Notes under the pieces: generated by a model
The model's input: the letters and a program-made list of their open reading frames with translations, nothing else
Told to the model about the DNA's origin: nothing
Databases searched by the model: none
Assembly: GCA_016793265.1 (NCBI GenBank)
Contig: JAEUHT010000221.1
Coordinates: forward strand, 1 to 35,752
DNA length: 35,752 nt
Direction: 5' to 3'
DNA from: Planctomycetota bacterium
GTDB taxonomy: Bacteria; Planctomycetota; UBA1135; UBA2386
In this document: positions 1,296-23,378 of the stretch, piece by piece
Position numbering within the stretch: position 1 is the stretch's first letter
Layout of the letters: each line of letters begins with the position of its first letter
Program-made: the position numbers and the translations under genes

Positions 1296-1328
1296 GGCAG
1301 GCCGGGGCGCGGTCCAATGACGCGCGCC

Positions 1329-2309
1329 ATGAATCGTCTCACGCTCAGCGAACAGTTCTTCCGCGATCAGGCCCTCGCGCACGCCAGCGGCGGCATGTCG
1401 ACGGTGCTCAACCGCTTCAGCCTCGTCGGCCGCATGCTGGCCAGCGAGATCATGCGCGCGGGCTTCGTCGGCAAGCTCGGTTACACCGGCACCACCAACG
1501 TGCAGGACGAAGACGTGCGGGCGCTCGACGTCATCAGCAACGACACCGTGCTGCAGGTCTTCGACAGCATGCCGCTGGTCTGCGGCATCGCCAGCGAGGA
1601 GATGGAAGGGGTGCACTACCCGTCCGGCAGCGAAGAGGGCAAGTACCTGATCGCCTGCGACCCGCTCGATGGTTCGGGCAACGTCGACGTCGCCGGCCAG
1701 ATCGGCACGATCTTCGGCGTCTACCGGCGCCGTTCCGCCTCGGGCAAGCCGCCGCTCGATGACTTCCTGCAGCCTGCCCGCAACCTGATCGCCGCCGGCT
1801 ACATCCTCTACGGCCCGTGCACGATGCTGGTCTACACCGCCGGCGGCCCGGTCAACGGCTTCACGCTCGATCGTTCGATCGGCACGTTCTTCCTGACGCA
1901 CCCCAACATCCGCATCCCGGAGGGCACCGGCAGCTACTCGGTCAACGAGGCCAACGAGAAGAAGTGGGACGCGAAGACGCAGGCGATGGTGCGCGCCTTC
2001 CGCCAGCAGGAGACCGACTGCGGCAAGCGCGCCGCGCGCTACGCCGGGGCCCTGGTCGGCGACTTCCACCGCACGCTGTTGAAGGGCGGCATCTACATGT
2101 ATCCGGGCGAGGTCAAGAAGCCGTCCGGCAAGCTGCGCCTGCTCTACGAGAACGGGCCGCTCGGCTTCATCTGCGAGAAGGCCGGCGGCGCGGCGAGCGA
2201 CGGCACGCAGCCGATCCTCGACATCGTGCCGAACGAACTGCACCAGCGCACGCCGCTGTTCCTCGGCAGCAAGGGCGACGTCGCCGAAGCGGTGCGCCGC
2301 CTCAGCTAG
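1329..2309 (+). CDS. fbp: Fructose-1,6-bisphosphatase, class I
   Basis: Hydrolyses fructose 1,6-bisphosphate to fructose 6-phosphate in gluconeogenesis; cytoplasmic and Mg2+ dependent. Numbered from the upstream in-frame ATG at 1317, the protein has 330 residues, the normal class I length. Metal-site residues are present as Glu94-Glu95 and the signature D115-P-L-D-G-S-G-N122 (usually DPLDGSSN, here with Gly at the second Ser). The substrate-binding blocks 'RYAGALVGDFHR' (241-252), 'GGIYMYPG' (257-264) and 'KLRLLYENGPLGF' (272-284) are intact. I prefer the second ATG (1329) because class I enzymes begin close to this 'LTL' segment; the ATG at 1317 would add four residues. No convincing Shine-Dalgarno sequence precedes either. 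With acetyl-CoA synthetase at 6210 it would support growth on acetate, although the two are not in one operon. Confidence 0.93.
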   Translation: MNRLTLSEQFFRDQALAHASGGMSTVLNRFSLVGRMLASEIMRAGFVGKLGYTGTTNVQDEDVRALDVISNDTVLQVFDSMPLVCGIASEEMEGVHYPSGSEEGKYLIACDPLDGSGNVDVAGQIGTIFGVYRRRSASGKPPLDDFLQPARNLIAAGYILYGPCTMLVYTAGGPVNGFTLDRSIGTFFLTHPNIRIPEGTGSYSVNEANEKKWDAKTQAMVRAFRQQETDCGKRAARYAGALVGDFHRTLLKGGIYMYPGEVKKPSGKLRLLYENGPLGFICEKAGGAASDGTQPILDIVPNELHQRTPLFLGSKGDVAEAVRRLS

Positions 2310-2345: not shown

Positions 2346-2357
2346 GGCCGGGTGGCG

Positions 2358-3740
2358 TCACAGGCCGATGACGATGCGGCCGCCCTGCGAGGTGGCGACG
2401 AACAGGTTCGGCCCCGCGAACGACAGCAGGATGCCCTGCACGTAGAGCGTGGCGTTGGCCAGCGTCGGCGTGTTCGGGATGTTGAGCGTGAAGCTCGCGC
2501 TGTTGGCGGCCACCAGCGACAGCTCGAGCACGTCGGGCGCCGCGAGCAGTTCGCAGCCGGTGATGCCGAGGATGCTCAGGTCGAGCGGCAGCGGCAGGCC
2601 CTGCCACGTCTGGTTGCTGGTGCCGAAGCCCCAGGCGGCGACGTCGCTGCCGTTGGGGATGCTGGTGAGGTCCAGCGTGAACGGTTGGTTGACGGTCGGC
2701 ACGCCGCCGGTCAGCGCCGGCACCAGCGTCGGCTCGCTGGGCGAGCAGGCTTCGCCGTAGGTGGCGAACGAGCCGGTGCCGCCGCCGTTGAATTCCCAGG
2801 TCGTGTTCAGGAACGAGCCGCCGAAGCCGCCGAACAGCACGAACTTCTTGCGGGCGGGGTCGTAGCCGGAGTAGGCCTCGGCGGTGTTGGTGGGCAGGTT
2901 CGCGGTCGTGATCGCCCTCCAGTCGGAGCCCGTGAACTCGTAGGTCTCCTGCAGCAGTTGCTCGCCGTCGAAGCCGCCGTAGAGCACCACCCGGTGGCGG
3001 GTGCTGTCGAAGACCGTGCCCATCGCGTAGCGCGGCGACGGCGTGTTCGCGGGGGCGAGCTGCGTCCAGTCGTCGCCGTCGTAGCTCCAGGTGCCGCCGA
3101 GCACGAGGTCGAGCTCGAGCTGGCGACCACCGAACAGGATGGTGCGGTTGAGGCTCGCATCGAAGTGCATCGCCGCGTCCTGGCGCGGCGACGGGCTGTG
3201 CGCGGGGAAACGCTCGGTCCAGGCGACGCCGTCGAACTCCCAGGTGTCGTTCTTGCTGGCCGAGGCGGTGCGACCGCCGAACAGCACGGCGACCTGGCGC
3301 ACGCTGTCGAACGCCATCGCGTAGCCGTAGCGCGCGCTCGGCGCCGTCGGCGTCGGGATCGTCGACCACGTGCTGCCGGTCCACTCGGCGGTGTCATTGG
3401 CGAAGCCGCTCAAGGTCGGCGAACGGCCGCCGAAGGTCAGCAGGCGGTTCGTGGCCGGGTTGCGCACGAGCCGATGCCCCCAGCGCGGCGCCCCGGCGGT
3501 CGCCGGATTCAGCAGCGTCCAGGTGGTGCCGTTGTAGCCCCAGGTCTCGGCCAGGATCGTGCTCGGCGTCTGCGTCACGCCGCCGTAGAGCAGCAGGCGG
3601 TTGTTGGGCTGGTCCCACGCCATGGCGCCGTCGCGGCGGATGCCCGGGGCTGCGGCGGGGCTGGTCTGGGTCCAGGTCGGGGACTGGGCCGTGAGCGTGG
3701 TGGCGAGCAACAACAGGGTCGCAGGGGTACTCAGGTGCAT
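2358..3740 (-). CDS. Secreted Kelch-repeat protein with C-terminal beta-sandwich-like module
   Basis: A 460-residue protein starting at ATG 3740 with a signal peptide (MHLSTPATLLLLATTLTAQ, probable cleavage after the TAQ). Residues from about 30 to 325 hold six Kelch-like units, recognisable by repeated 'LLLYGG', 'LLTFGG', 'VLFGG', 'ILFGG', 'VVLYGG', 'VLFGG' followed by 'TWEF/TWGY...W' strands; they should close as one beta-propeller. The last 130 residues form a separate module starting 'YGEAC' and containing 'LPLDLS.LGI.GC' and 'SFTLNIPNTPTL'. I recognise this arrangement from secreted proteins of some planctomycetes, where the tail recurs on otherwise unrelated exported proteins; its function is unknown. 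The role is probably extracellular binding, with no catalytic residues visible. It is transcribed divergently from the MoaD-MoaE gene, and a TATCCT box (minus strand, 3788-3783) precedes it. Confidence 0.85.
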   Translation of the reverse strand: MHLSTPATLLLLATTLTAQSPTWTQTSPAAAPGIRRDGAMAWDQPNNRLLLYGGVTQTPSTILAETWGYNGTTWTLLNPATAGAPRWGHRLVRNPATNRLLTFGGRSPTLSGFANDTAEWTGSTWSTIPTPTAPSARYGYAMAFDSVRQVAVLFGGRTASASKNDTWEFDGVAWTERFPAHSPSPRQDAAMHFDASLNRTILFGGRQLELDLVLGGTWSYDGDDWTQLAPANTPSPRYAMGTVFDSTRHRVVLYGGFDGEQLLQETYEFTGSDWRAITTANLPTNTAEAYSGYDPARKKFVLFGGFGGSFLNTTWEFNGGGTGSFATYGEACSPSEPTLVPALTGGVPTVNQPFTLDLTSIPNGSDVAAWGFGTSNQTWQGLPLPLDLSILGITGCELLAAPDVLELSLVAANSASFTLNIPNTPTLANATLYVQGILLSFAGPNLFVATSQGGRIVIGL

Positions 3741-3782
3741 TGGACTGGGTGGCGGGTCTGTGGGGCAATCGGCCCGCCGAGC

Positions 3783-3788
3783 AGGATA
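3783..3788 (-). promoter_or_regulatory. Putative -10 box of the Kelch gene
   Basis: On the minus strand the sequence reads TATCCT, 42 bases before the ATG at 3740. The same hexamer occurs on the other strand at 3883-3888 ahead of the divergent MoaD-MoaE gene. This suggests the 156-base gap (3741-3896) holds two back-to-back promoters. It is a pattern match only. Confidence 0.35.
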
Positions 3789-3882
3789 CCAGCCACCGCA
3801 ACGGCGGGAACGATCTCGCGGTGCCATCACGCGGACTTTCCGCGTCGGTCCACTGCGTTGCTGCAGCGAAGGCGGCGCGCCG

Positions 3883-3888
3883 TATCCT
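3883..3888 (+). promoter_or_regulatory. Putative -10 box directly upstream of the MoaD-MoaE gene
   Basis: TATCCT ends 8 bases before the ATG at 3897, so transcription would begin at or within a base or two of the start codon, giving a leaderless mRNA. A possible -35 (TTGCTG, 3858-3863) has a long 19-base spacer. No Shine-Dalgarno sequence is present, which fits leaderless initiation. Confidence 0.35.
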
Positions 3889-3896
3889 CGGTGCCA

Positions 3897-4610
3897 ATGT
3901 CGAAGCCCGCCCCGACCATCCAGGTGACCCTGCGTTGTTTCGCCGCCGTGCGCGAGCAGCTCGGCGTCGACGAATTGAAGGTCGAGTTGCCCGCCGGCGC
4001 CACGGTCGAGGCGCTGCGCCAGCGCCTGGGCCAGCGTTGCCCCGGCCTGCTGCGCCTGCCGCTCGCGTTCGCGGTCAACCGCGACTATGCGCGCGCCGAC
4101 AGCGAGCTGCGGGACGGCGACGAGGTGGCGTTCATCCCGCCGATCAGCGGCGGCTCCGGCGCCCACGATCTCTATCGCTTCGATCTCGTGTGCGCGCCCA
4201 TCGCGGCGGCGTCGATCGAGGCCGAGTGCCGCACCGATGCCGACGGCGCCGTGGTCAGCTTCGCCGGCACCACGCGCAACCAAAACGACGGCGCCGCGGT
4301 GGTGTCGCTCGCCTACGAGGCCTACGCCGAGATGGCGCAGAAGGTCATGTGCGGCCTGTTCGAGGAGGCGATCAAACGCTTCCCGATCACGCGTGCGCGC
4401 GTCGTGCACCGGCTCGGCGTGGTGCCGGTCGGCGAGACCTCGGTGCTGGTCGTCGTCGCTTCACCGCACCGCGGGCCGGCCTTCGACGCCTGCCGCTTCC
4501 TGATCGACCGGCTCAAGAGCGAGGTGCCGATCTGGAAGCGCGAGCTGCTGCGCGACGACGGCGGGGAACGTTGGATCGGCGAGCTGCCGCGGCCCGCGGG
4601 CCAGAGCTGA
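3897..4610 (+). CDS. Molybdopterin synthase, MoaD-MoaE fusion (MoaX-like)
   Basis: A 237-residue fusion of both molybdopterin synthase subunits, which insert two sulfurs into cyclic pyranopterin monophosphate to make molybdopterin. Residues 1-86 are the ubiquitin-like MoaD sulfur carrier, ending in 'FIPPISGG' with the essential diglycine at 85-86. Residues 90-237 are MoaE: 'FAGTTRN' (122-128, the pterin-site Arg127), 'SPHRGPAF' (189-196) and catalytic-type lysines in 'DRLKSEVPIWKREL' (K207, K214). Because the diglycine is internal (GG-SG), the protein must be cut after Gly86 before adenylylation and thiocarboxylation. Mycobacterial MoaX has this arrangement and is known to be cleaved there. 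The ATG at 3897 is chosen because it begins the MoaD fold; the long upstream open frame is antisense to the Kelch gene. No other moa genes are in the window. Confidence 0.92.
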   Translation: MSKPAPTIQVTLRCFAAVREQLGVDELKVELPAGATVEALRQRLGQRCPGLLRLPLAFAVNRDYARADSELRDGDEVAFIPPISGGSGAHDLYRFDLVCAPIAAASIEAECRTDADGAVVSFAGTTRNQNDGAAVVSLAYEAYAEMAQKVMCGLFEEAIKRFPITRARVVHRLGVVPVGETSVLVVVASPHRGPAFDACRFLIDRLKSEVPIWKRELLRDDGGERWIGELPRPAGQS

Positions 4611-11073: not shown

Positions 11074-14000
11074 TCACAGGCCGCGGTAGAGGCGGCAGCG
11101 GCGCAGCAGGGCGGCCTCGGCCGGCGTGAAGGCCCCGGCGAGGCCGAGCCACTGCAGCCGGTGCATCAGCGCCTTGGCCGGGTCGTCGGTGTGCGGCAGC
11201 AGCGTCGCCGCATCGAGTGCGAACGCGTCGGCGTGCGCCTGCCGCAGCTCCGCCTGGAGCGGACCGCCGTCGCCGGCGAGCAGGTGGCGGCGCAGGCACT
11301 CGACGCCGGCCGGCGACCGCTGCAGCGCGTCGAGCGGACCGTCGAGGTCGCCGCTGCGTTGCACGAACTGCCACAGCGCTTCGGCTTCGGCGGCGGTCGC
11401 CGGCACGAACTGGTCGTGCAGGTTCTTCTGGAAGAGGCCGAGCAGCGCAACCCGCTGTGGGCCCGGCAGCCGCGACCAAGCCGCGGCCCAGCGCGCGTCG
11501 TCGAGGAACTCGCGGTTGGCGTAGAGCTGGTCCGGCGTGCCGTTGGCGACGATCGCCGGCGAGACGAACCGCGTCAGCAGGTCGAGTTCGCCGGTGAGGT
11601 CGGCGGTGCCGCGACGGGCCAGTTCCGCAACGAGCAGGGTGTGGGCGCCGGCGACGTCGTCGGCGTCGAGGTCGAGCGCCTGCGCCCATGGCGCGGCGGC
11701 GGTGGTCGCGGCGCCAGTCCCGGCCCGCGCGCCGCGGGCGCGCAGCGCCGTCGCCAGCAAGAACCGCCAGGACGGGATGCGGGCTTGGGCGAGTTCCTGC
11801 TGCAGCACGGTGGTCGGCCGCGTCGCGAGGTCGAGGTGGGGGAGCACGGCTTCGACGGTGAGTCCGTTCGCCTCGGCGATCGTGTTGGTGGCGAGGCCGG
11901 CGAAAGCCCGGAGCGGCACGTCGGCCCAGAACACCGCGGGCAGTTCGCGTTCGAGCTGCTCGAAGCGCAGGAGCACGAACTCCGGGGTCTGCAGCCGGCG
12001 CTGCAATTCGGCGCAACCGGCGTCGCTGCGGGCGGCCCAGGCGATCACCCCGTCGGTGTCGGGGGGGGCCCGGTCGAGCACGAGTCCCGGCGGCAGCAGG
12101 TCCTGGTCCGCGTGGTCGAGCAGGTTCCAGATCTGCGCGAACAGATCCGCGCGCGCCGTGGCCGCGGCCTCACGCAGGACCACCCGCAGGGCCGGCAACT
12201 GCGGGGGAGCTTGCAGTTCCTCGAGCAGCGCGTCGATCGGCGTGTCGATGCCGCGTGCGAGCTGCCACCAGCGGGCGAGCAGGGTCTCGTCGGCCGGCGC
12301 AGCGGCCGCGATCGCCCGGCGAAGCAAGCGTACGCGTTCCCCTGCCGGGTCGGCGTCCTTCGGCAGCGGCGACGCGAGTGCCGCCGGCAGTGCCGCGACC
12401 AGCAGCGCCTGCAGTCGCAGCCGGGCCGCAGCTCGCCAGGCGCGTTCGGCCCAACGGTCGTCGTCGGCATCGGCAGCACAGCCTTCGAGCAGGTCGGTGA
12501 TCGCTGCGAGGCGCGGCCATGGTTCGGCGCCGGCCGGCGGCAGCTTCGCCCACAGGGCCTCGATCAGGCCCGCCCGCGTCGCCTCATCGGGCCCGTTCTC
12601 GCCCCACGTCGGCGGCCGTTGCCACGATTCGGCAGTGTTGGCGAACAGGTGCACGGTGATGCCGCGCTCGGGTTCGTGGTCCTCGCGGAAGGCGTCGCGG
12701 AACGCGCAACACCACGGATCGAGCGGGTCCTCTGGCTCGTCGAGAACCTCCGGCCGTGGACCCTGCAGGCACGTGCCCACGCTCGGCACCGCGCCCGATG
12801 GCAACGTCACGACCTCGACGAACGCGCCCGCGGTGCCGCCATCGTGTTCGGTCGCGTACATCGGCGTCGCGGTGGTGGGCGGCCAGACGAAGCGGCCGGC
12901 GAGCGTCGGCACGACATCGAGCCGCAGCACCGTCGGCTGCGCCGGATCGAGGTCGGTGACGAAGGCGACGCGGTCGTCGAAACGCTCGATCGCATCCAGT
13001 TCGGACGGCAGTTCGAAGCCGGCCGGCAACGGGCAATCGACGACGACGTGGCGCGCCGGCACCGGCGACGACAGTTCGAGGCGCAGCACGAGCGGGCGGC
13101 CGGTCGGCAGCGCACCGAGCACCGGTTCGAGGTCGGTGCCTTCCCGGCGTTCGCGCCAGGTGGCAGAGGCGCGCGACGTGCACCACTGGCGTTGCACTCG
13201 GATCGGCGTCGCCCAGGCGACGTGGTCGCTGGCGCGTTCGATGCGGCCGCTGGTGATGCGCACGAGCAGCGGCATGCCGGCGGGACCACGAACGGTCACG
13301 GCCGCGGCGTGCGGCAGGCGGCAGTGCACTGCCGGGCCGGCCGGCCCGCCGATCACGAACTCGCGCCGCTCGCTGCCGGCTTCGACGACGATGGTGCCCG
13401 GCGTCGCCGTGGTCTCGGGCAGGACCAGCGCCAACGCCGCCAACGCCGAGGCGTGGCCGTAGGTGGTGCCGCGACCCGCAAGACAGGCGAGCAGCAGCTC
13501 GGCAGCGGCGCGTTCGAGCGCCGCGGGCGGGGCCGAGAGCGCGAAGTCGAGTTCGAGCCGCAAGGCCTGCACCGCGAGCGGGTCTTCGCCCGGGAAGTCG
13601 TCGAGGTGCAGCGCGGGCGGCGTGCCGTCGCCGAGCCGCCCGCGGCAGGCGCGGGCACCGTCGGCATCGCCGAGCTCGTGCAGCGCGAGACCGAGCCGCG
13701 CCACGAGCCCCGCGGGCAATTGGGGCAGCAGGTCGAGCAGCGGCTGCAGCAGTTCGTGGACGCCACTGCGTTCGCGGAACAACCGCGCGGCGCCGACCAG
13801 CCGTTCGGCCTCGCGCACGAACGCCGCATCGACGACGTGGAGGCCCTGCTGGCGCGGCAGGCCGTCGAAGAAGTAGTACGGCGGCAGATCGAGCCCGGAC
13901 GGATCGAGGTCGAAGCCACCGTCGCGCAGCATCGCGAGGCCCTGCAGCACGAGGCCGGTGATGCCGGGCTCGGGATCCTGGTCGGGCCAGAACGCAAACT

Positions 14001-17000
14001 GCCGCGACGAGGTGGGCTGCAGCGTGCGCAGGTGGGCGAGGCCGGCCCGCAGGCGCGTGCCGAACGCGGCGTCCATCACGGGCGGCACCGTGCCACGCCG
14101 CTTCGCCGCGCGAACGAGCGCGAAGTACGGCACCAGCCGCGACAGCGTCTGCTCGGCGCAGCCGTACGGATAGCGCGCGAGGTCGGCGGCGAGCTGCGTC
14201 CAAGCGGCGGCACCACCCTGCAGCACGTCGACGGTGACGGCGAGCTCCGGCGAGGCCTCTGCCGGCAGCGGCACCGTCACTTCCCCAGTGCCCGACGCGG
14301 CGGCGGCCAGCGTGCGCACGACCTGATCGGCGGCGACCGGCAGCAGGCGTTCGGAACGGTCGCCGAACTCGCCACAGGCAGCCGTCAGCTGCAGCGTCGC
14401 CGGCCCGGCGGTCACGGCGCGCATCGGGATCGTCGTCGTGTGCACGCTGCCTGCGGCCACCGCGACCTCGCTGCTGGGCTGGTCGATGCGGAGCCCTTCG
14501 CCCGTAGCGGCGGCGGTCACGCGCACGGTCTCGGCGCCGCCGGCGGCGGCGGCCCGATCGATCGCCACCGGCAGCTCGAAGCGGTCGCCGGCCCGCAGCG
14601 CGCGCGGCAGCACCGGTTCGGCGGCGAGCGGCTGCCGCGACGCGAACTCCGCGCGCGTGATGGTGCCGCTGCCGTCGGCGGTGACCAAAGCCGCGGTGAC
14701 GCGCCAGCGCGTGAGGTCGTCGGGCAGGCGGAAGCTCGTCGCCGCATCGCCGTGCGCATCGGCGCGCACGGTGGCGAAGTGCGCGGTGGGGCAGAAGCGG
14801 GTGCGCGCGGCGCCGCCGGCAGAGACCGGGGCCGCACTGCCAGCGCCGCTGGAGCCGCGCTCGGCGAGGTCGCGCGTCCAGCCGAGCTCGGGCACGCGGC
14901 CGTGGACGAGCAGCGAGCGCACCAGTTCCATCGGCGTCGAGCAGAACGGCGCCGCGAAGGGGCGCCATCCGGTGTACGGCAGGTTCGGCCGCAACGCGTC
15001 CGCAGGCTGCTCGGTGTGGTCGTGGGCGAGTTCGTAGATGCGTTCGTCGACGACGGCGAAGGTGACGAGGGCGCCTGGATCCCCGTGCGCATGCACGGTC
15101 GTCTGCTGCCCCGGGCTCGCCTGCGCGGGCACTTCGAGGCGCAACTCCGGCAGCACCCGCAGCGACACGGGCACCGTCGCCCGATCGGTGCCGGCGCTCG
15201 TCGCCACGGTGACGTCGAAGCGTGGCCAGTCGTCGCGCCGCACGGGTTCGTCGATCGTCAAGGAACCGTCGGCAGCTAGTTGCACCGTGTGCAGACGCGC
15301 ATGGGCGCCGCGGCCGACGACGACGAGCACGGGCACGCCGGTCGCGCCACGCAGCCTGATGCGACAGGTGGTGCCGACCACGGCATCACCGAGTTCGACC
15401 GCGGGCACGGCAGCGGCGGGCTGCTGGTCGGTCGTGGTGTCGGCCGCACTGGGCTCGTTCACCACCCGCATTCGGTGCCAGCCGAGCGCGGCCTTGCCGT
15501 CCGGCCCGGTCACCACGAAGTCGACGTCGACCCAGCTCGGCCCGACGCTGGCGATCGGCACGCGCACGGTGGCGCGACCGTCGGCAGCGGTCTGCAGCTG
15601 CACCGCCTCTTCGCGCTCCCAGCCATCGCGCGCGTTGATCTGGGCCCGCACGTCGAGGCCCGCGGCAGCACCACCGGAGGCCCACGTCGCGCGCACGGTC
15701 ACGGCGACCTCGGCGGCCGTGGCCGCCACCGTCAATGGGCCGTCGATCTCGATTTGCACGGCCTGCCGGCGGAAGCTCGCCACGTCGGCGAGGGCGCCGA
15801 GGTGGAGGCGCTCGGGCTCCTGTTCGGCCGCCACCGCCGGCAGTTCGAGCCAGAACGACAACTCGTCGCCGGGCGCCGCCTCCTGGGGCACGCGGAAGGT
15901 GAAGGCCGCGAGGCCGTCGGCGTCGGTCCGCAGCGGTTGCCGCAGTTCGCCGATCGACTCGATGCGCAGCACGACGGTGGCCTGCACGGCGTCGGCCGGT
16001 GCGGTGCTCGGCACCTGCGAGATGCCCTCACCCTGCCAGGAGCACGTGCGCAGCACGATGCGGCCCGAGACCGTCTCGCCGGGTCGGTAGATCGGCCGGT
16101 CGACCATGGTGTGGGCGAGCCAGCGGGCGCCATCGTCGTGGTCGCGCCAGAGCCGGTGGTGCAGCCAGCTCGAACCGTGGGCGCTGCGCAGCAGCAGTTC
16201 GCAATCACGCGCGAAGTCCAACGCCGCCGGCGGCGGCACCAAGCTGGCGGTGGCCGCGAGTTCGCCACTGGCGATCGGCGCGCCCTGCTGCTGCCACGAC
16301 CATGTGGCCGGCACCGGGTCGCTGCCGACGAACGTGGCCAGCGCGAGCCAGCCCTCCTGTTCGAGCCCGATCGCTTCGAGGTCGCTGACCAGGACGCGCC
16401 GCACGCCGCGCCAGGTCGTGGTCGTCGACTGCGCCGCGAGCAGCCAATCGCCCGCGGGCAGGGCCGGCAGCGCGAACGGGCCCGTGGCGGGCAGGGTCGC
16501 GGTCCACAGCGGGGCGCCGAGGGCATCGAGCTCGGGCCACGGCAGGCGGCCCGGCGCACACGGCACGAGCCGCAGGTCCAGCGCTTCCTGGAGCTCCGGC
16601 GGCCGCTGCCACGCGGCGGTCGTCGGCACGCGCACGGGGGACAGGCCAAAACGCGTCACGCGGGCCAGCCCCAGCAGCCGTTCGGCCTCCTGTAGCAGCT
16701 GCGCGTCGCCACCAGCGCGCCGCCGCGCCGCGACGGCCGCGGTGAGGCCGAGCACGACGGGCGCCATGGCCTCGGCATCGGTGTCGCGGTCGTCGTCGAT
16801 GGGGCTCCAGGCCGCGAGTTCCGGCACCGCGGGCTGCCGATTGGCGGCCGCGAGGGCCGCGGCGGCGCCGGCGACGAGCGCGCGATCGGCCTCGGCATCG
16901 GCCGGGAAGGCCTGGGCCACCGCCAACATCGCCGCGGCGCGCGCGGGCGCCGGCCGCAGCGCCGCCTGCAGCCGGGCGCGCAAGGCCGGGGTCGCCGCGT

Positions 17001-17121
17001 TGGCCGCCGCCCGCGCGGCCGCCGCCGGTTGATCACGCAGCAGCGCCGAAAGCACGTCGTCGGCGGGGTCCTGGGCGAAGGAGGCAACGGCAAGGACGGG
17101 CACGGCGAGCAGGGAGCGCAT
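11074..17121 (-). CDS. Secreted alpha-2-macroglobulin family protein with intact thioester motif and long C-terminal extension
   Basis: 2,015 residues from ATG 17121, which begins a clear signal peptide (MRSLLAVPVLAVASFAQ); the upstream ATG at 17163 would bury it behind 14 charged residues. There is no lipobox cysteine, so it is probably soluble in the periplasm or exported, unlike the usual lipoprotein form in Proteobacteria. 'DRPIYRPGETV' near residue 345 marks the macroglobulin domains, 'LPDDLTRWRVTA' near 800 the domain before the thioester, and 'YPYGCAEQTLSRL' carries the thioester Cys988 and Gln991 followed by an alpha/alpha-toroid region. A pattern resembling the C-terminal macroglobulin domain ('GRFVWPPTTATPMYATE') lies near 1415. 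About 570 further residues, helical and Ala/Leu/Arg-rich, match nothing I recognise. Family role: a protease trap whose thioester links covalently to targets. The usual partner PbpC is not adjacent. Confidence 0.9.
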   Translation of the reverse strand: MRSLLAVPVLAVASFAQDPADDVLSALLRDQPAAAARAAANAATPALRARLQAALRPAPARAAAMLAVAQAFPADAEADRALVAGAAAALAAANRQPAVPELAAWSPIDDDRDTDAEAMAPVVLGLTAAVAARRRAGGDAQLLQEAERLLGLARVTRFGLSPVRVPTTAAWQRPPELQEALDLRLVPCAPGRLPWPELDALGAPLWTATLPATGPFALPALPAGDWLLAAQSTTTTWRGVRRVLVSDLEAIGLEQEGWLALATFVGSDPVPATWSWQQQGAPIASGELAATASLVPPPAALDFARDCELLLRSAHGSSWLHHRLWRDHDDGARWLAHTMVDRPIYRPGETVSGRIVLRTCSWQGEGISQVPSTAPADAVQATVVLRIESIGELRQPLRTDADGLAAFTFRVPQEAAPGDELSFWLELPAVAAEQEPERLHLGALADVASFRRQAVQIEIDGPLTVAATAAEVAVTVRATWASGGAAAGLDVRAQINARDGWEREEAVQLQTAADGRATVRVPIASVGPSWVDVDFVVTGPDGKAALGWHRMRVVNEPSAADTTTDQQPAAAVPAVELGDAVVGTTCRIRLRGATGVPVLVVVGRGAHARLHTVQLAADGSLTIDEPVRRDDWPRFDVTVATSAGTDRATVPVSLRVLPELRLEVPAQASPGQQTTVHAHGDPGALVTFAVVDERIYELAHDHTEQPADALRPNLPYTGWRPFAAPFCSTPMELVRSLLVHGRVPELGWTRDLAERGSSGAGSAAPVSAGGAARTRFCPTAHFATVRADAHGDAATSFRLPDDLTRWRVTAALVTADGSGTITRAEFASRQPLAAEPVLPRALRAGDRFELPVAIDRAAAAGGAETVRVTAAATGEGLRIDQPSSEVAVAAGSVHTTTIPMRAVTAGPATLQLTAACGEFGDRSERLLPVAADQVVRTLAAAASGTGEVTVPLPAEASPELAVTVDVLQGGAAAWTQLAADLARYPYGCAEQTLSRLVPYFALVRAAKRRGTVPPVMDAAFGTRLRAGLAHLRTLQPTSSRQFAFWPDQDPEPGITGLVLQGLAMLRDGGFDLDPSGLDLPPYYFFDGLPRQQGLHVVDAAFVREAERLVGAARLFRERSGVHELLQPLLDLLPQLPAGLVARLGLALHELGDADGARACRGRLGDGTPPALHLDDFPGEDPLAVQALRLELDFALSAPPAALERAAAELLLACLAGRGTTYGHASALAALALVLPETTATPGTIVVEAGSERREFVIGGPAGPAVHCRLPHAAAVTVRGPAGMPLLVRITSGRIERASDHVAWATPIRVQRQWCTSRASATWRERREGTDLEPVLGALPTGRPLVLRLELSSPVPARHVVVDCPLPAGFELPSELDAIERFDDRVAFVTDLDPAQPTVLRLDVVPTLAGRFVWPPTTATPMYATEHDGGTAGAFVEVVTLPSGAVPSVGTCLQGPRPEVLDEPEDPLDPWCCAFRDAFREDHEPERGITVHLFANTAESWQRPPTWGENGPDEATRAGLIEALWAKLPPAGAEPWPRLAAITDLLEGCAADADDDRWAERAWRAAARLRLQALLVAALPAALASPLPKDADPAGERVRLLRRAIAAAAPADETLLARWWQLARGIDTPIDALLEELQAPPQLPALRVVLREAAATARADLFAQIWNLLDHADQDLLPPGLVLDRAPPDTDGVIAWAARSDAGCAELQRRLQTPEFVLLRFEQLERELPAVFWADVPLRAFAGLATNTIAEANGLTVEAVLPHLDLATRPTTVLQQELAQARIPSWRFLLATALRARGARAGTGAATTAAAPWAQALDLDADDVAGAHTLLVAELARRGTADLTGELDLLTRFVSPAIVANGTPDQLYANREFLDDARWAAAWSRLPGPQRVALLGLFQKNLHDQFVPATAAEAEALWQFVQRSGDLDGPLDALQRSPAGVECLRRHLLAGDGGPLQAELRQAHADAFALDAATLLPHTDDPAKALMHRLQWLGLAGAFTPAEAALLRRCRLYRGL

Positions 17122-17259
17122 GGGCGTGGTGCGGCGATCGTAGTCGCCGCGGGCGCCGCGCATGGCAAGCCGTGTTCCGCCGGGGCTGCGATCGTGGGCG
17201 GGTTGCTCCGGGCTGCCGTTCGTTTCGGGCCCGGAACGATGCCGCCCCAGGCACCGCGC

Positions 17260-19473: not shown

Positions 19474-20082
19474 GTGAGCCAAGTGACGACGATCCAGGTC
19501 GGGCAGATCGTGCCCGATTTCGAGATGGAGACCTACCTGCCGAGCAAGAAGGACTTCGGCAAGTTCAGCCTCGCCGAGGCCAAGAAGGCGGGCAAGTGGA
19601 CCGTGTTGGTCTTCTACCCGGCCGACTTCACCTTCGTCTGCGCGACCGAGTTCGCGGCGCTGGCGCAGCAGTATGCGACGCTGCAGAAGCTCGGCGCCGA
19701 GGTGCTGACGGTCAGCACCGACACCAAGTTCACGCACCTGGCCTGGCAGCGGCACGAAGGTGAGTTGGCGAACGTGACCTATCCGATGGCGGCCGACCGC
19801 ACCGGCGCGGTGTCGCGCCTGCTCGGCGTCTACATGGAGAACGGCCTCGCCCTGCGCGGCACGTTCATCATCGGTCCGGACGGCAAGCTGCACGGCAGCG
19901 AGATCAACTTCCTCAACGTCGGCCGCAACATGGAGGAGCTGACCCGCAAGGTGCAGGCCTTCATCCACTTCAGCAAGCTGCCCGAAGAGGCCTGTCCGGC
20001 CAACTGGAAGAAGCCCGGCGACAAGTCGCTGAAGCCGAACGCCGGCCTGGTCGGCAACGTGCACCAGGCGATGAAGGGCTGA
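19474..20082 (+). CDS. ahpC: 2-Cys peroxiredoxin (AhpC/Prx1 type)
   Basis: A 202-residue cytoplasmic peroxidase that reduces H2O2 and organic peroxides. The peroxidatic Cys56 sits in 'FYPADFTFVCATE', with Pro49, Thr53 and later Arg129 completing the usual active site. The resolving Cys174 is in 'EEACPANW' near the C-terminus, followed by a tail typical of the AhpC class. The start is GTG 19474, supported by a GAGGA Shine-Dalgarno sequence at 19463-19467 with a 6-base spacer, one of the few clear ones in the window. A TAGGTT/TTTAGA AT-richer patch near 19429-19438 may belong to the promoter. It diverges from the acyl-CoA dehydrogenase. The next gene, 80 bases on, is the UGA-containing thioredoxin-like protein; no AhpF or other reductase is adjacent. 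Confidence 0.93.
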   Translation: MSQVTTIQVGQIVPDFEMETYLPSKKDFGKFSLAEAKKAGKWTVLVFYPADFTFVCATEFAALAQQYATLQKLGAEVLTVSTDTKFTHLAWQRHEGELANVTYPMAADRTGAVSRLLGVYMENGLALRGTFIIGPDGKLHGSEINFLNVGRNMEELTRKVQAFIHFSKLPEEACPANWKKPGDKSLKPNAGLVGNVHQAMKG

Positions 20083-20162: not shown

Positions 20163-21143
20163 ATGGTCTCCCTCCGCAAACTGTTCGTGGTCGCGGCGCT
20201 CGTCGCCGCGGCCGTGCCGGCCCAGATCCAGAAGGGATCTGCCGCGCCGGCCTTCCCGTTCCAGAAGGTCTGGAACGATGGTCCCGCGAGCTTCGACGAT
20301 CTTGCCGGCAAGGTCGTGTTGTTCGACTTCAGCGCCACCTGGTGAGGCCCCTGCAAGGCGGCCGTCCCGCACCTGAACGAGCTTCACGCGAAGTTCGCGG
20401 AGCGGGGGCTGCTGATCATCGGCGTGTCCGATGAAGCCGAGAGTGCCATCCAGAGTGTGTTCATCGACAAGATCGGGGCCAAGTACCCGATCGTGAAGGT
20501 CGACGCCAAGGACGTCGCTGGCTACGGGATCAAGTTCTACCCGAGCCTCTACTGCCTCGACGCCGACGGCAACGTCGTCTCCGTGCCCGACGATCGGGAG
20601 CCCTCGGAGGCGAGGATCGAGGAGCTGCTCAAGAACGTGACGCTGGCGCCGAAGCTGCCGGCCGAGGCGCGCTACGAGCCGCTGCGCGCGCTGTGGAACA
20701 AGAAGGACTACGCCAAGCTGCGCGACCATCTGGCGCAGATGCTGGCGCAGCCGAACCTCGACGCGGCGATGCGCGAGGTCTACGAGGGCCAGCAGAAGGT
20801 CCTCGACCAGAAGGTGGCAGCGCAGCAGCAGCGGGTCGCCAAGCTCGGCGAAGGTCCCGACTTCTTCACGGCCTCGGCGCAACTCGCCAAGATCGAGAAG
20901 GAGTGGAAGGGCTTTCCGGTGGCGGCCGAGGCGCGCGCGCAGTTGACGCGCTTCGCCGGCGACGCGCCGATCCGCCAGGAGATCGCCGCCGGCAAGGCGC
21001 TGCAGAAGCTGCTCGACAGCTACGACCCGAGCAAGCAGGCGCAGGCGCGCAAGCTGCTGGAGGAGCTCGCGCGCTTCGCCAAGAAGCACCCGGACACCTA
21101 CGCCGGCCAGCAGGCGGCGAAGATGGTGGCGCAAGAGAAGTGA
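20163..21143 (+). CDS. Exported thioredoxin-like (TlpA-type) protein with in-frame UGA in the active site: candidate selenoprotein
   Basis: Read through the UGA at 20343, this is a 326-residue protein. Residues 1-21 are a signal peptide (MVSLRKLFVVAALVAAAVPA), then a thioredoxin fold begins: 'FDDLAGKVVLFDFSATW', UGA (position 61), 'GPCKAAVPHLNELHAKFAE', the strand 'LLIIGVSDE', and 'GYGIKFYPSLYCLDADG' with the expected cis-Pro of thioredoxins. The active site thus reads U61-G-P-C64 in place of C-G-P-C. From about residue 160 a charged helical domain follows (Lys/Glu/Gln/Ala-rich, possibly TPR-like). The frame is intact on both sides with no shift. Expected role: periplasmic thiol-disulfide reduction. 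ATG 20151 is an alternative start, adding four residues; a TATCAT box (20147-20152) lies just upstream. The stop overlaps the next start as GTGA. The alternative reading, a pseudogene or base error TGC/TGT to TGA, cannot be excluded from one sequence. Confidence 0.8.
20343..20345 (+). other. Candidate selenocysteine codon (UGA)
   Basis: This UGA occupies the position of the N-terminal, nucleophilic cysteine of a thioredoxin WCGPC motif: tgg-TGA-ggc-ccc-tgc-aag. It is one base from TGC or TGT. Most other genes here use TGA as a normal stop, so the codon is not reassigned throughout. selA, selB, selC and selD would have to lie elsewhere in the genome. Confidence 0.72.
20347..20409 (+). promoter_or_regulatory. 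Candidate bacterial SECIS region (stem-loops just after the UGA)
   Basis: Three mutually compatible pairings can be drawn by hand. Closing stem: 20347-20354 with 20402-20409, eight pairs including one G-U, starting two bases after the UGA. Hairpin A: 20356-20358 with 20372-20374 and 20359-20361 with 20367-20369, a two-base bulge and the loop CCGUC at 20362-20366, whose first base is the 17th after the UGA and so falls in the usual bacterial SECIS range. Hairpin B: 20378-20385 with 20390-20397, eight pairs, loop ACGC. No guanine lies in the first two loop positions of hairpin A, which is atypical, and GC-rich coding DNA pairs easily by chance. Confidence 0.4.
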
Positions 21144-21973
21144 CCGGCGCCGCCGACGCGGTGCTGGTGCTGCGGCGCGGCGGCCTCGGCGACTGCCTGC
21201 TGATGCTGCCGCTGCTGCGCGCGCTGCGTCGGGCCCGTCCCGGCGCGGCGCTGCACTTCGCCGGGGCGAGCGAGTGCGGCGAGCTGTTCTGTCGGCGCGG
21301 CGTGGTCGACGCGGCGCGTGCCGCGGAGGACCTCGAGCTGTGGCATGCGGCGCGGGCGCGGCAGCGCCTGCTCGGCTACTGCGAGATCGTCGGCGACGAA
21401 CCAACGTTGGCGACGGTGCCGATCGACGTCACGCGGGTCGTCGCCGGCGTGCCGGTGGCGCGGCAGTGGCTCCAGCAGGCCGGCCTGCCCACGCACTGGC
21501 CCGACGACGGCTGGCTCGCGCCGCCGCGGGCGTGCGGCGGTCCTGGGGCCATCGTGCTGGCGCCGGGCAGCGGCGCGCGGGCCAAGTGCTGGCCGCCGGT
21601 TCGCTGGCTCGAGCTGGCGGCGCTGCTGGCCGCTCGTGGTTGCGCGCTGCAGGTCGTGGTCGGGCCGGTCGAGCTCGAACGCGACGACCCGCGGCGCTGG
21701 CCGTGGCCGGTGCCGGTGACGTTCGTCGTCGGCCGCCGCGTCACCGAGCTCGCGGCCGAACTCGAAGCCGCGGCGGCGTTCGTCGGCAACGACAGCGGCA
21801 CTACGCACCTGGCGGCGGTGGTCGGCGCGCCGACGGTGGCGCTGTTCGGGCCGACGGAGCCGTTGTTGTGGGCGCCGGTCGGGCCGCACGTGCGCGTGCT
21901 GCGCGGGGCGGCGGGGGAACTCGCCGCGATCCCCACCGCCGACGTCGCGGCCGCCGTCATCGGCCCGCGGTAG
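21140..21973 (+). CDS. Glycosyltransferase family 9 (heptosyltransferase-like)
   Basis: 277 residues from GTG 21140, whose first bases overlap the preceding stop as GTGA, so translation is probably coupled to the Sec-thioredoxin gene. The GT-B fold of family 9 is indicated by 'VLRRGGLGDCLLMLPLLRAL' at the N-terminus, 'LAPGSGARAKCWPPVRW' at the start of the second domain, and 'GNDSGTTHLAAVVGAPTVAL' (216-235) leading into 'FGPTEP', the sugar-nucleotide binding block. Family members add heptose or related sugars to lipopolysaccharide core from the cytoplasmic side. The length is somewhat short (typical 320-350), with missing loops in the first domain. The acceptor cannot be predicted. Its coupling to a periplasmic thioredoxin has no obvious functional reason. 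It is convergent with the lysozyme-like gene, 8 bases away. Confidence 0.85.
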   Translation: MTGAADAVLVLRRGGLGDCLLMLPLLRALRRARPGAALHFAGASECGELFCRRGVVDAARAAEDLELWHAARARQRLLGYCEIVGDEPTLATVPIDVTRVVAGVPVARQWLQQAGLPTHWPDDGWLAPPRACGGPGAIVLAPGSGARAKCWPPVRWLELAALLAARGCALQVVVGPVELERDDPRRWPWPVPVTFVVGRRVTELAAELEAAAAFVGNDSGTTHLAAVVGAPTVALFGPTEPLLWAPVGPHVRVLRGAAGELAAIPTADVAAAVIGPR

Positions 21974-21981
21974 TGGGGCCG

Positions 21982-22494
21982 TCACGGCAACTGGGCGCGA
22001 ACCCGCTGCCAGTAGCCGTCGGTCTTCTGGTTCTCGGTGCCCTTCGGGCCACCGTTGTGGGTGCGCGCGATCACCTCGGCGTCGCCGCTGGCCCACGCCG
22101 CGGGCACGTAGTGCTGCATGTAGATCGTGATCACGCGTTCGGCGTAGTCGCGTCGTCGGCAGTCTTGATAGTCGCCACCGAGCTCCGGGGCGAAGCGCAG
22201 TGCGTCCTGCCAGTAGACGCGGTGGATCTGGTAGGGGCCGATGGCGAGGCCGTCGTCGCCATCGGGCGGCCGTTGCCGGCCGCTGCTCTCGACGAAGCGG
22301 ATGGCGTCGAGGATCTGCTGGCGCGGCCAGTGCCGGCGCTCGCCGCCGCCGTGCCACCACCACAGCACGACCAGCAGCACGAGCGCCCACAGGCTCGCCG
22401 ATCGCCGCGACCGCGGCCGCAGGCGGCGCCACGGCAGACGGCGCAGCGACGGCAGGCGCAATCGTGGCAGTCGCTGTCGGCGCGGCATGTTCAT
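21982..22494 (-). CDS. Membrane-anchored i-type lysozyme/destabilase-like protein
   Basis: 170 residues from ATG 22494, which overlaps the stop of the upstream EamA gene as ATGA; a second ATG at 22488 is two codons in. The N-terminus (4-31) is extremely Arg-rich, followed by one membrane helix (33-47, 'ASLWALVLLVVLWWW'), so the rest faces outside. The soluble domain starts 'ILDAIRFVESSG' with Glu69 as candidate catalytic acid, then 'GLAIGPYQIHRVYWQDA' (82-98), 'YAERVITIYMQHY' (117-129) and 'ARTHNGGPKG' (143-152). The order E-S-G, G-P-Y-Q-I, Y-M-x-x-Y and H-N-G-G-P matches invertebrate-type lysozymes (destabilases) and their bacterial relatives. Expected activity: cleavage of peptidoglycan glycan strands, possibly isopeptidase. 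Only one cysteine remains of the many in animal i-type lysozymes. Confidence 0.7.
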   Translation of the reverse strand: MNMPRRQRLPRLRLPSLRRLPWRRLRPRSRRSASLWALVLLVVLWWWHGGGERRHWPRQQILDAIRFVESSGRQRPPDGDDGLAIGPYQIHRVYWQDALRFAPELGGDYQDCRRRDYAERVITIYMQHYVPAAWASGDAEVIARTHNGGPKGTENQKTDGYWQRVRAQLP

Positions 22495-23378
22495 CGGCGG
22501 CGCCCGACGACGAGGAACAAGCCGGCGGCGACCAGCGTGGTGCCGGCGAGCGCCAGCGGCGTCAGCGCGCCATCGCCGACGATCGCGGCGAGCAGCATGG
22601 CGAGCACCGGGGTGACGTAGGTGATCAGGGACAACGACGAGGCCGCGGTGGTGCGCAGCAGGTGGAAGTAGAGGCCGAACGCGAGCGTGGTGCCGACCAG
22701 CGCCAGGTAGAGCGTCGCCGCCGCCGCCGGCCACGTCCAGCGCAGCTCGAGTGGGCGTTCGCCGGCGAACGCGGCGGCGCCGAGCAAGGCCGCGCCGAGC
22801 AGCATGCCGTTGCGATTGAGCAGCACCGAGCTGGTGTGGCGGCCGTGGCGTTTGACCAGCGTGGTGCCGACCGCCGACACCACCGGGCTCGCCAGCAGCA
22901 GCAGCGCCCAGTGCAGTTCGTCGCCGCCGAGGTCGTTCGCCGACACCGTGCAGATGCCGCTGAAGCAGATCACGAAGCCGAGCAGTTGCCGTGGCGACAA
23001 CCGTTCGCCGAGCACGAGCACGCCGCTCAGCGCCATCAGCAGCGGGAAGACCGCCCACAACACCGCGGCGGTGCCGGAGCGCACGTGCTGTTCGGCGACG
23101 TAGAGCACGCCGTAGGAGCCGGCGAAGTTGGTGGCGCCGGCGAGCAGCCACAACCAGACCGGTGGTGGGGCGGGCGGCGGCGTGCTTTCGTGGCGGCGCA
23201 GCAGCGGCGTCAGCGCGGCCATGGCGAGGCTCGCGATCAGGAAGCGCAGCGCCGCCGAGGTCAGCGGCGGCTGCACTTCGACGCAGAGGCGGATCGCCCA
23301 CCACGTGCTGCCCCAGATCAGGCAGAGCAGCGTGATCTGCGCGGGCACCTTGGCGGAACGGTCAGGGGCGGAGGCCAT
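22491..23378 (-). CDS. EamA-family (DMT superfamily) transporter
   Basis: 295 residues with about ten hydrophobic segments in two homologous halves of five, the layout of drug/metabolite transporters of the RhaT/YdcZ/EamA type. The first half opens with 'LLCLIWGSTWWAIRLCV' and continues 'LRFLIASLAMAAL'; 'VLWAVFPLLMALSGVLVLGERLS' and, in the second half, 'SLITYVTPVLAMLLAAIVGDG' are the conserved 'P.....L.....GE' helices. The second half has lost the usual Glu after the Pro helix (here GDG). The start ATG 23378 lies inside the end of the aldehyde dehydrogenase gene (17-base overlap) and its end overlaps the lysozyme-like start, so the three genes form a coupled operon. The substrate is unknown; amino acids or metabolites are typical. 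Confidence 0.88.
   Translation of the reverse strand: MASAPDRSAKVPAQITLLCLIWGSTWWAIRLCVEVQPPLTSAALRFLIASLAMAALTPLLRRHESTPPPAPPPVWLWLLAGATNFAGSYGVLYVAEQHVRSGTAAVLWAVFPLLMALSGVLVLGERLSPRQLLGFVICFSGICTVSANDLGGDELHWALLLLASPVVSAVGTTLVKRHGRHTSSVLLNRNGMLLGAALLGAAAFAGERPLELRWTWPAAAATLYLALVGTTLAFGLYFHLLRTTAASSLSLITYVTPVLAMLLAAIVGDGALTPLALAGTTLVAAGLFLVVGRRR

Follow-up and report, generated by a model that had tools for sequence, protein, structure and literature searches.

The window analyzed here is the 35,752-nucleotide contig JAEUHT010000221.1 (contig C199) of a Planctomycetota bacterium, whose assembly (GCA_016793265.1; 4.9 Mb in 316 contigs) is 81% complete. At positions 20163 to 21143 it carries a gene that, judged from its sequence, very probably encodes a single predicted exported thioredoxin-fold oxidoreductase. 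Within it, an in-frame UGA at 20343 probably stands for selenocysteine (Sec), which would be the attacking residue in the active site, U-G-P-C. The gene comprises the following elements, all on the plus strand:

20163 to 21143: candidate selenoprotein gene (ATG start, terminal TGA at 21141-21143, 326 residues with the UGA read through)
20163 to 20222: likely signal peptide, residues 1-20, assigned by eye and with low predicted local distance difference test scores (pLDDT) at residues 1-17
20235 to 20642: thioredoxin-fold domain, residues ~25-160, ResA/DsbE/TlpA-like
20343 to 20354: U-G-P-C active site (UGA at 20343-20345, residue 61; Cys64 at 20352-20354)
20357 to 20413: conserved RNA hairpin, likely an atypical selenocysteine insertion sequence (SECIS), with an apical stem at 20378-20397 and the loop ACGC at 20386-20389
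20424 to 20426: GTG (Val88), start of a shortened downstream open reading frame (ORF) under translation table 11
20667 to 21137: C-terminal domain, residues 169-325, with eight predicted helices

Reading frame and predicted protein

The TGA at 20343-20345 is codon 61, in frame with the ATG at 20163, and it falls on the first cysteine of a W-C-G-P-C motif, as the first-pass annotation of this DNA had observed. The frame begins MVSLRKLFVVAALVAAAVPAQ and reads LFDFSATW-U-GPCKAAVPHLNELH around the TGA, giving the active site W-U-G-P-C. Downstream lie 265 sense codons; the 266 open codons claimed earlier are these plus the terminal stop. Pfam matches of the read-through protein span the TGA (AhpC-TSA at residues 25-139, 53.1 bits against a cut-off of 26; Redoxin at 23-151; Thioredoxin at 50-86). 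An AlphaFold2 model with Sec entered as Cys has a mean pLDDT of 92.5, its thioredoxin domain resembles ResA and DsbE, and the helical tail modelled alone reaches 97.2. In an alignment of 15 sequences, A20 does not vary.

Table 11 splits the gene and leaves a GTG-started downstream ORF of 239 amino acids (20424-21143). The split annotation that had been predicted is real: 158 relatives were found among the matches listed from protein databases, 77 of them reaching the C-terminal region of the query, and 71 of these 77 start after the UGA, including 53 whose alignment begins at residue 88, which is encoded by the GTG at 20424. Among the matches listed, six relatives run the full length; three of them have WCGPC, and in the other three the motif is degenerate. 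The table 11 split and most of these database entries agree with a true stop at 20343, in which case two products would be made, an exported stub of 60 residues and, from GTG 20424, a C-terminal protein of its own; this alternative is weighed with the comparative evidence below.

Conservation of the UGA and selection on the protein

The bacterial family of the window was sampled with 34 genomes, 28 of which, spread over 15 of 18 genera, contain a match at an expectation value (E) of up to 1e-20. One locus per matching genome was examined, and three lower-ranked match rows were left out. All 28 orthologues have W-UGA-G-P-C at the aligned codon and zero other in-frame stops in the matched stretch. 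Each starts with ATG, and the encoded length is 325-333 residues in 27 and 351 in one. In a sample of the phylum, 97 of 392 genomes match the gene, and among the best 30 matches, 27 further loci carry TGA (23) or TGC (4; L173, L174, L181, and L184) at the site. Full-length relatives with Cys in place of the UGA, which the first-pass annotation had proposed as a check, are thus represented by these four loci and by proteins P0005, P0124, and P0125. An orthologue with TGA at the site (L061, from Planctomycetota bacterium isolate CH-Oct18-165; 57% identity) came from a contig scan with Cys-based patterns and was the sole clear orthologue taken from it, the other 79 loci being left out. A UGA conserved at a redox position, with Cys-containing relatives, is one of the marks by which a bacterial selenoprotein is recognized. 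That 28 related genomes all keep this stop, and keep it at one position of the active site, indicates that the codon is likely read as selenocysteine.

In eight of eight pairs, both upstream and downstream of the UGA, the rate of nonsynonymous substitution (dN) is below that of synonymous substitution (dS), the weakest contrast being that of L046/L049 upstream of the UGA (0.32 versus 0.49). By this measure selection acts on the protein ahead of the UGA as well as past it, and the downstream frames of close relatives are intact and selected rather than degraded. A tree was built from 57 rows, of which 50 have Sec and the remaining 7 have Cys or some other residue. It requires a minimum of six changes at the site, and Sec and non-Sec rows cluster no more strongly than after label shuffling, with 112 of 500 shuffles giving a value as low. 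L187, which has TGA at the site, was left out of the underlying alignment (A3) and of the tree, as it was without an ATG near the expected start.

These comparisons bear on two alternatives. A true stop would have to fall on the catalytic residue in every one of the 28 orthologues, the codons between the UGA and the GTG encode the invariant G-P-C plus further conserved residues in the alignment, full-length Cys forms exist, and a hairpin past the UGA is selected (see below); the split reading is accordingly considered highly unlikely, although TGA does terminate 22 of the 28 family genes. An assembly error or a decaying gene could be imagined in a genome as fragmented and incomplete as this one, but the presence of the same TGA in 28 family genomes and 23 others, together with dN below dS on both sides, leaves neither as an adequate explanation, and their probability is vanishingly small.

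RNA hairpin downstream of the UGA

Synonymous-codon shuffles, which keep the protein and test whether RNA folding itself is selected, single out one part of the gene. The segment starting three codons after the UGA has a mean z of -2.51, with z below -1.5 in 26 of 28 genes, whereas the other segments along the gene (25 in all) have mean z values of -0.91 to +0.40. In the corresponding hairpin, 87.3% of cells are paired across the 28 sequences, compared with 39.5-49.6% when the partners are slid, and nine pairs have changed on both sides, a result matched by 0 of 500 shuffles. An alternative register of the lower stem pairs 82.3% of cells, and in this second register all 20 pairs form in the window gene (20357-20413). 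Codon +13, a Leu codon within the stem, takes the form CTT in 14 of 28 genes, compared with 19 of 695 Leu codons elsewhere downstream. Two of three paralogues lacking Sec show no hairpin signal. On this comparative evidence, the RNA hairpin just past the UGA is selected beyond the protein sequence.

The hairpin departs from the usual bacterial form. The model given in section 5 of PMC13188914 calls for a G among the first two loop positions and for a distance of 16-37 nucleotides (nt) from the UGA, and the same section states that some bacterial SECIS elements lie outside it. Genes of the family studied here have ACGC, ACGA, or a similar loop, which stands ~40 nt from the UGA. Fit to the SECIS consensus, a further mark of bacterial selenoproteins, is therefore absent, and a different, selected hairpin is present in its place. 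Canonical hairpins, scanned for at -5 kcal/mol or better and with unbulged stems only, occur in 16 of the 23 phylum orthologues (4.2 expected from shuffles) and in 55 of 55 genes of a second W-U-G-P-C family from the same bacteria (17.1 expected), where the loop is GGUC at 31 nt from the UGA in the 15 genes inspected. The gene thus seems to use another SECIS shape in the bacterial family of the window.

A short SECIS directly after the UGA was considered and rejected: in the family, 12-codon windows starting 2-4 codons past the UGA are less folded than synonymous shuffles (z of +0.5 to +0.7), and the scan limited to unbulged stems found no G-loop hairpin of -5 kcal/mol. An Rfam search of the window gave no family above the gathering score, and the three matches within 20330-20440 are at chance level, none being a SECIS.

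Another arrangement is conceivable, in which Sec is inserted but SelB does not act at the 20357-20413 hairpin, insertion depending on a different element or on a readthrough effect of a general kind. The unusual loop, the distance beyond the 16-37 nt of the model, and the canonical hairpins of the second family would fit such an arrangement. Against it, the hairpin is the sole stretch of the gene with clear structural selection, and the codons immediately past the UGA are, as noted, folded less than shuffles. We regard this arrangement as unlikely, though less so than a true stop, and infer that the hairpin is the SelB site.

Selenocysteine machinery

The Sec machinery, another mark of a bacterial selenoprotein, was sought in the genome and found, selB in part. 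The assembly encodes a tRNA-Sec with anticodon TCA and a selA that adjoins selD. The SelD gene itself carries an in-frame TGA, presumably at the usual Sec site of SelD. SelB is represented by a C-terminal piece, its last 275 residues at a contig end, which is 45-70% identical to four full SelB sequences of the family. Among the family genomes other than this one, selA is found in 32 of 34 and selB over the cut-off in 31 of 34. Grouped by the codon at the site, selA occurs in 22 of 23 UGA-form genomes (in G207 as a piece only) and in four of four Cys-form genomes.

Decoding of the UGA as some other amino acid, such as Trp or Cys, by suppression or reassignment would produce the full frame equally well, and natural Cys forms exist. 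However, UGA is the terminal stop in 22 of 28 of the same genes, which bears out the earlier statement that UGA is not reassigned overall, and tRNA-Sec, selA, and selD are all present, so that the likelihood of this alternative is very slight indeed.

Other W-UGA-G-P-C proteins and paralogues

Across 34 genomes there are 106 sites with the pattern TGGTGAGGNCCNTGY (W-UGA-G-P-C), versus 17 with the reversed control pattern. The 106 sites divide into 28 of the window family, 55 of the second family, 2 in a DsbD/thioredoxin-like protein, 2 in another protein, and 19 without a coherent frame, which were left out. Proteins of the second family have a TlpA-like domain behind a long N-terminal part (~385 amino acids in L005), and their copies comprise L005:1501-1914 on the minus strand (C112:20755-21168 of the same genome as the window) and 54 loci elsewhere, within L203-L272. 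The DsbD/thioredoxin-like protein (L200, at C155:2300-2314 of the same genome, and L274) reads FTAKW-UGA-GPCK, has >450 open codons past the UGA, and is likely another selenoprotein. The same is likely of a short TlpA-like protein of 218-222 amino acids in L219 and L248, with FWGxW-UGA-GPCRGAVPHLLELA.

Three full-length paralogues have lost the attacking residue, as though the fold had been retained for a different purpose. L059 has His at the Sec site and keeps Cys64, a gene beside an orthologue in L060 reads ADGSG with Asp at the site, and L003, a distant paralogue in the same genome (contig C23), has Gln.

Relationship to known families

The window protein shares PF00578 and a UxxC motif with the Prx-like thiol:disulfide oxidoreductase selenoproteins (53.1 bits; U-G-P-C). 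The entries for these in PMC13188914 and PMC9312934 describe domain and motif only, without a helical tail or export, and it is by these descriptions that the window protein is set apart. From the Cys proteins ResA, TlpA, and DsbE it differs by Sec in place of the first Cys and by the helical tail, and it scores 75 bits against the ResA model NF002854, whose cut-off is 170. A ResA-like domain is shared with NF041054 (ResA-like WAxxUGC motif-containing protein), 45 of 54 members of which match below the cut-off, but that family is named for a UGC motif whereas the window protein has UGPC and scores 34.1 bits versus 300. The tail resembles that of the VPGUxxT family NF041382: 38 of 53 members match the window helical tail at E up to 0.01 (best 6.9e-21), and window residues 177-323 align to profile positions 201-348. 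The window motif is nevertheless W-U-G-P-C rather than VPGUxxT, and the score, 27.2 bits, is far short of the cut-off of 350. The 13 NCBIfam models listed for the window protein all score below their cut-offs, and a PDB search with the tail domain gave no match at E up to 0.001 (best, BamCD at 0.68).

Selenoproteins of the Prx-like/thioredoxin kind with a UxxC motif had been published by 2005 at the latest, from the Sargasso Sea (PMC1088965), and reviews (PMC9312934 and PMC13188914) list both Prx-like and thioredoxin-like members with UxxC. Two cultured planctomycetes have been reported with Sec genes and selenoprotein candidates (PMC4807772). The main texts of several selenoproteome papers do not name the phylum Planctomycetota, and a literature search covering few subscription papers found no description of the family, members of which may stand in S9 Table of PMC4807772. 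The first-pass annotation had called the gene a candidate new selenoprotein. That holds for the family, three features of which appear to be new: the combination of thioredoxin domain and helical tail, the breadth of its distribution in Planctomycetota, and the atypical hairpin. The UxxC kind itself is not new.

Neighboring genes

Two genes flank the candidate selenoprotein gene, both on the plus strand:

19474 to 20082: AhpC-type peroxiredoxin gene (start tentative), ending 80 bp upstream of the selenoprotein gene
21143 to 21973: glycosyltransferase family 9 gene (start tentative; frame 20693-21973)

The AhpC neighbor hints at oxidative stress. Of 29 loci, some of them with short flanks, 13 have AhpC upstream and 15 have the glycosyltransferase downstream, and this patchy neighborhood is too irregular for assigning function; the AhpC link was dropped as a functional clue. 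Elsewhere in the window are a fructose-1,6-bisphosphatase gene (1317-2306, plus strand), a frame with ThiS and MoaE domains (2352-4607, plus), a bacterial alpha-2-macroglobulin-like protein of 2,029 amino acids with A2M, MG2, and bMG10 domains (11074-17163, minus), and a frame with a weak Pfam Destabilase match (21982-23301, minus; 35.3 bits versus 26.2), which may not be a gene.

Proposed mechanism and implications

Thioredoxin-fold proteins carry out thiol-disulfide exchange with an attacking and a resolving residue. In the proposed mechanism, the hairpin would recruit SelB with tRNA-Sec(UCA), Sec would be inserted at the UGA, and the chain would be exported to the periplasm. There, Sec61 would attack disulfides of partner proteins, Cys64 would resolve the mixed selenosulfide, and the helical C-terminal domain might hold the partner protein. 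A reductase is likelier than an oxidase because of the GP dipeptide and the ResA/DsbE-like fold.

The earlier proposal that the in-frame TGA marks a selenoprotein is strongly supported by the UGA in all 28 orthologues, the Sec machinery, selection on both sides of the codon, and the selected hairpin. Several observations pull the other way. No canonical SECIS hairpin of -5 kcal/mol or better with an unbulged stem was found in any of the 28 family genes (3.0 expected from shuffles), RNAalifold alone recovers 12 pairs only (-3.96 kcal/mol), the 23 other phylum orthologues have a weak shuffle signal (best mean z about -0.9 to -1.0), and L059, a paralogue without Sec, reaches a z of -2.08 at one offset. 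With the attacking residue missing from L059, L060, and L003, Sec/Cys chemistry is impossible for some copies. SelB is incomplete in the assembly. Since selA is also present in all 19 of the same-order genomes that lack a match to the gene, and none was found in the UGA-form genome G114, the Sec machinery does not discriminate and serves as a consistency check only; selA presence was dropped as a discriminating test. The reductase direction and the substrate are drawn by analogy with the family.

More broadly, Planctomycetota may hold a widespread, overlooked family of exported, helical-tailed seleno-thioredoxins, which in the bacterial family of the window would use a second SECIS class (long stem, ACGC-type loop, 40 nt) served by the same SelB that reads the GGUC hairpins of the sister gene, a proposal whose chances are about even. 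Dozens of database fragments would then become halves of one real redox protein, and many families of Planctomycetota would have Sec in thioredoxin-fold proteins that are predicted to be exported. A single genome with two types of hairpin would be an exception to the rule by which bacterial SECIS elements are searched for, and loop-based searches would miss one of the two types.
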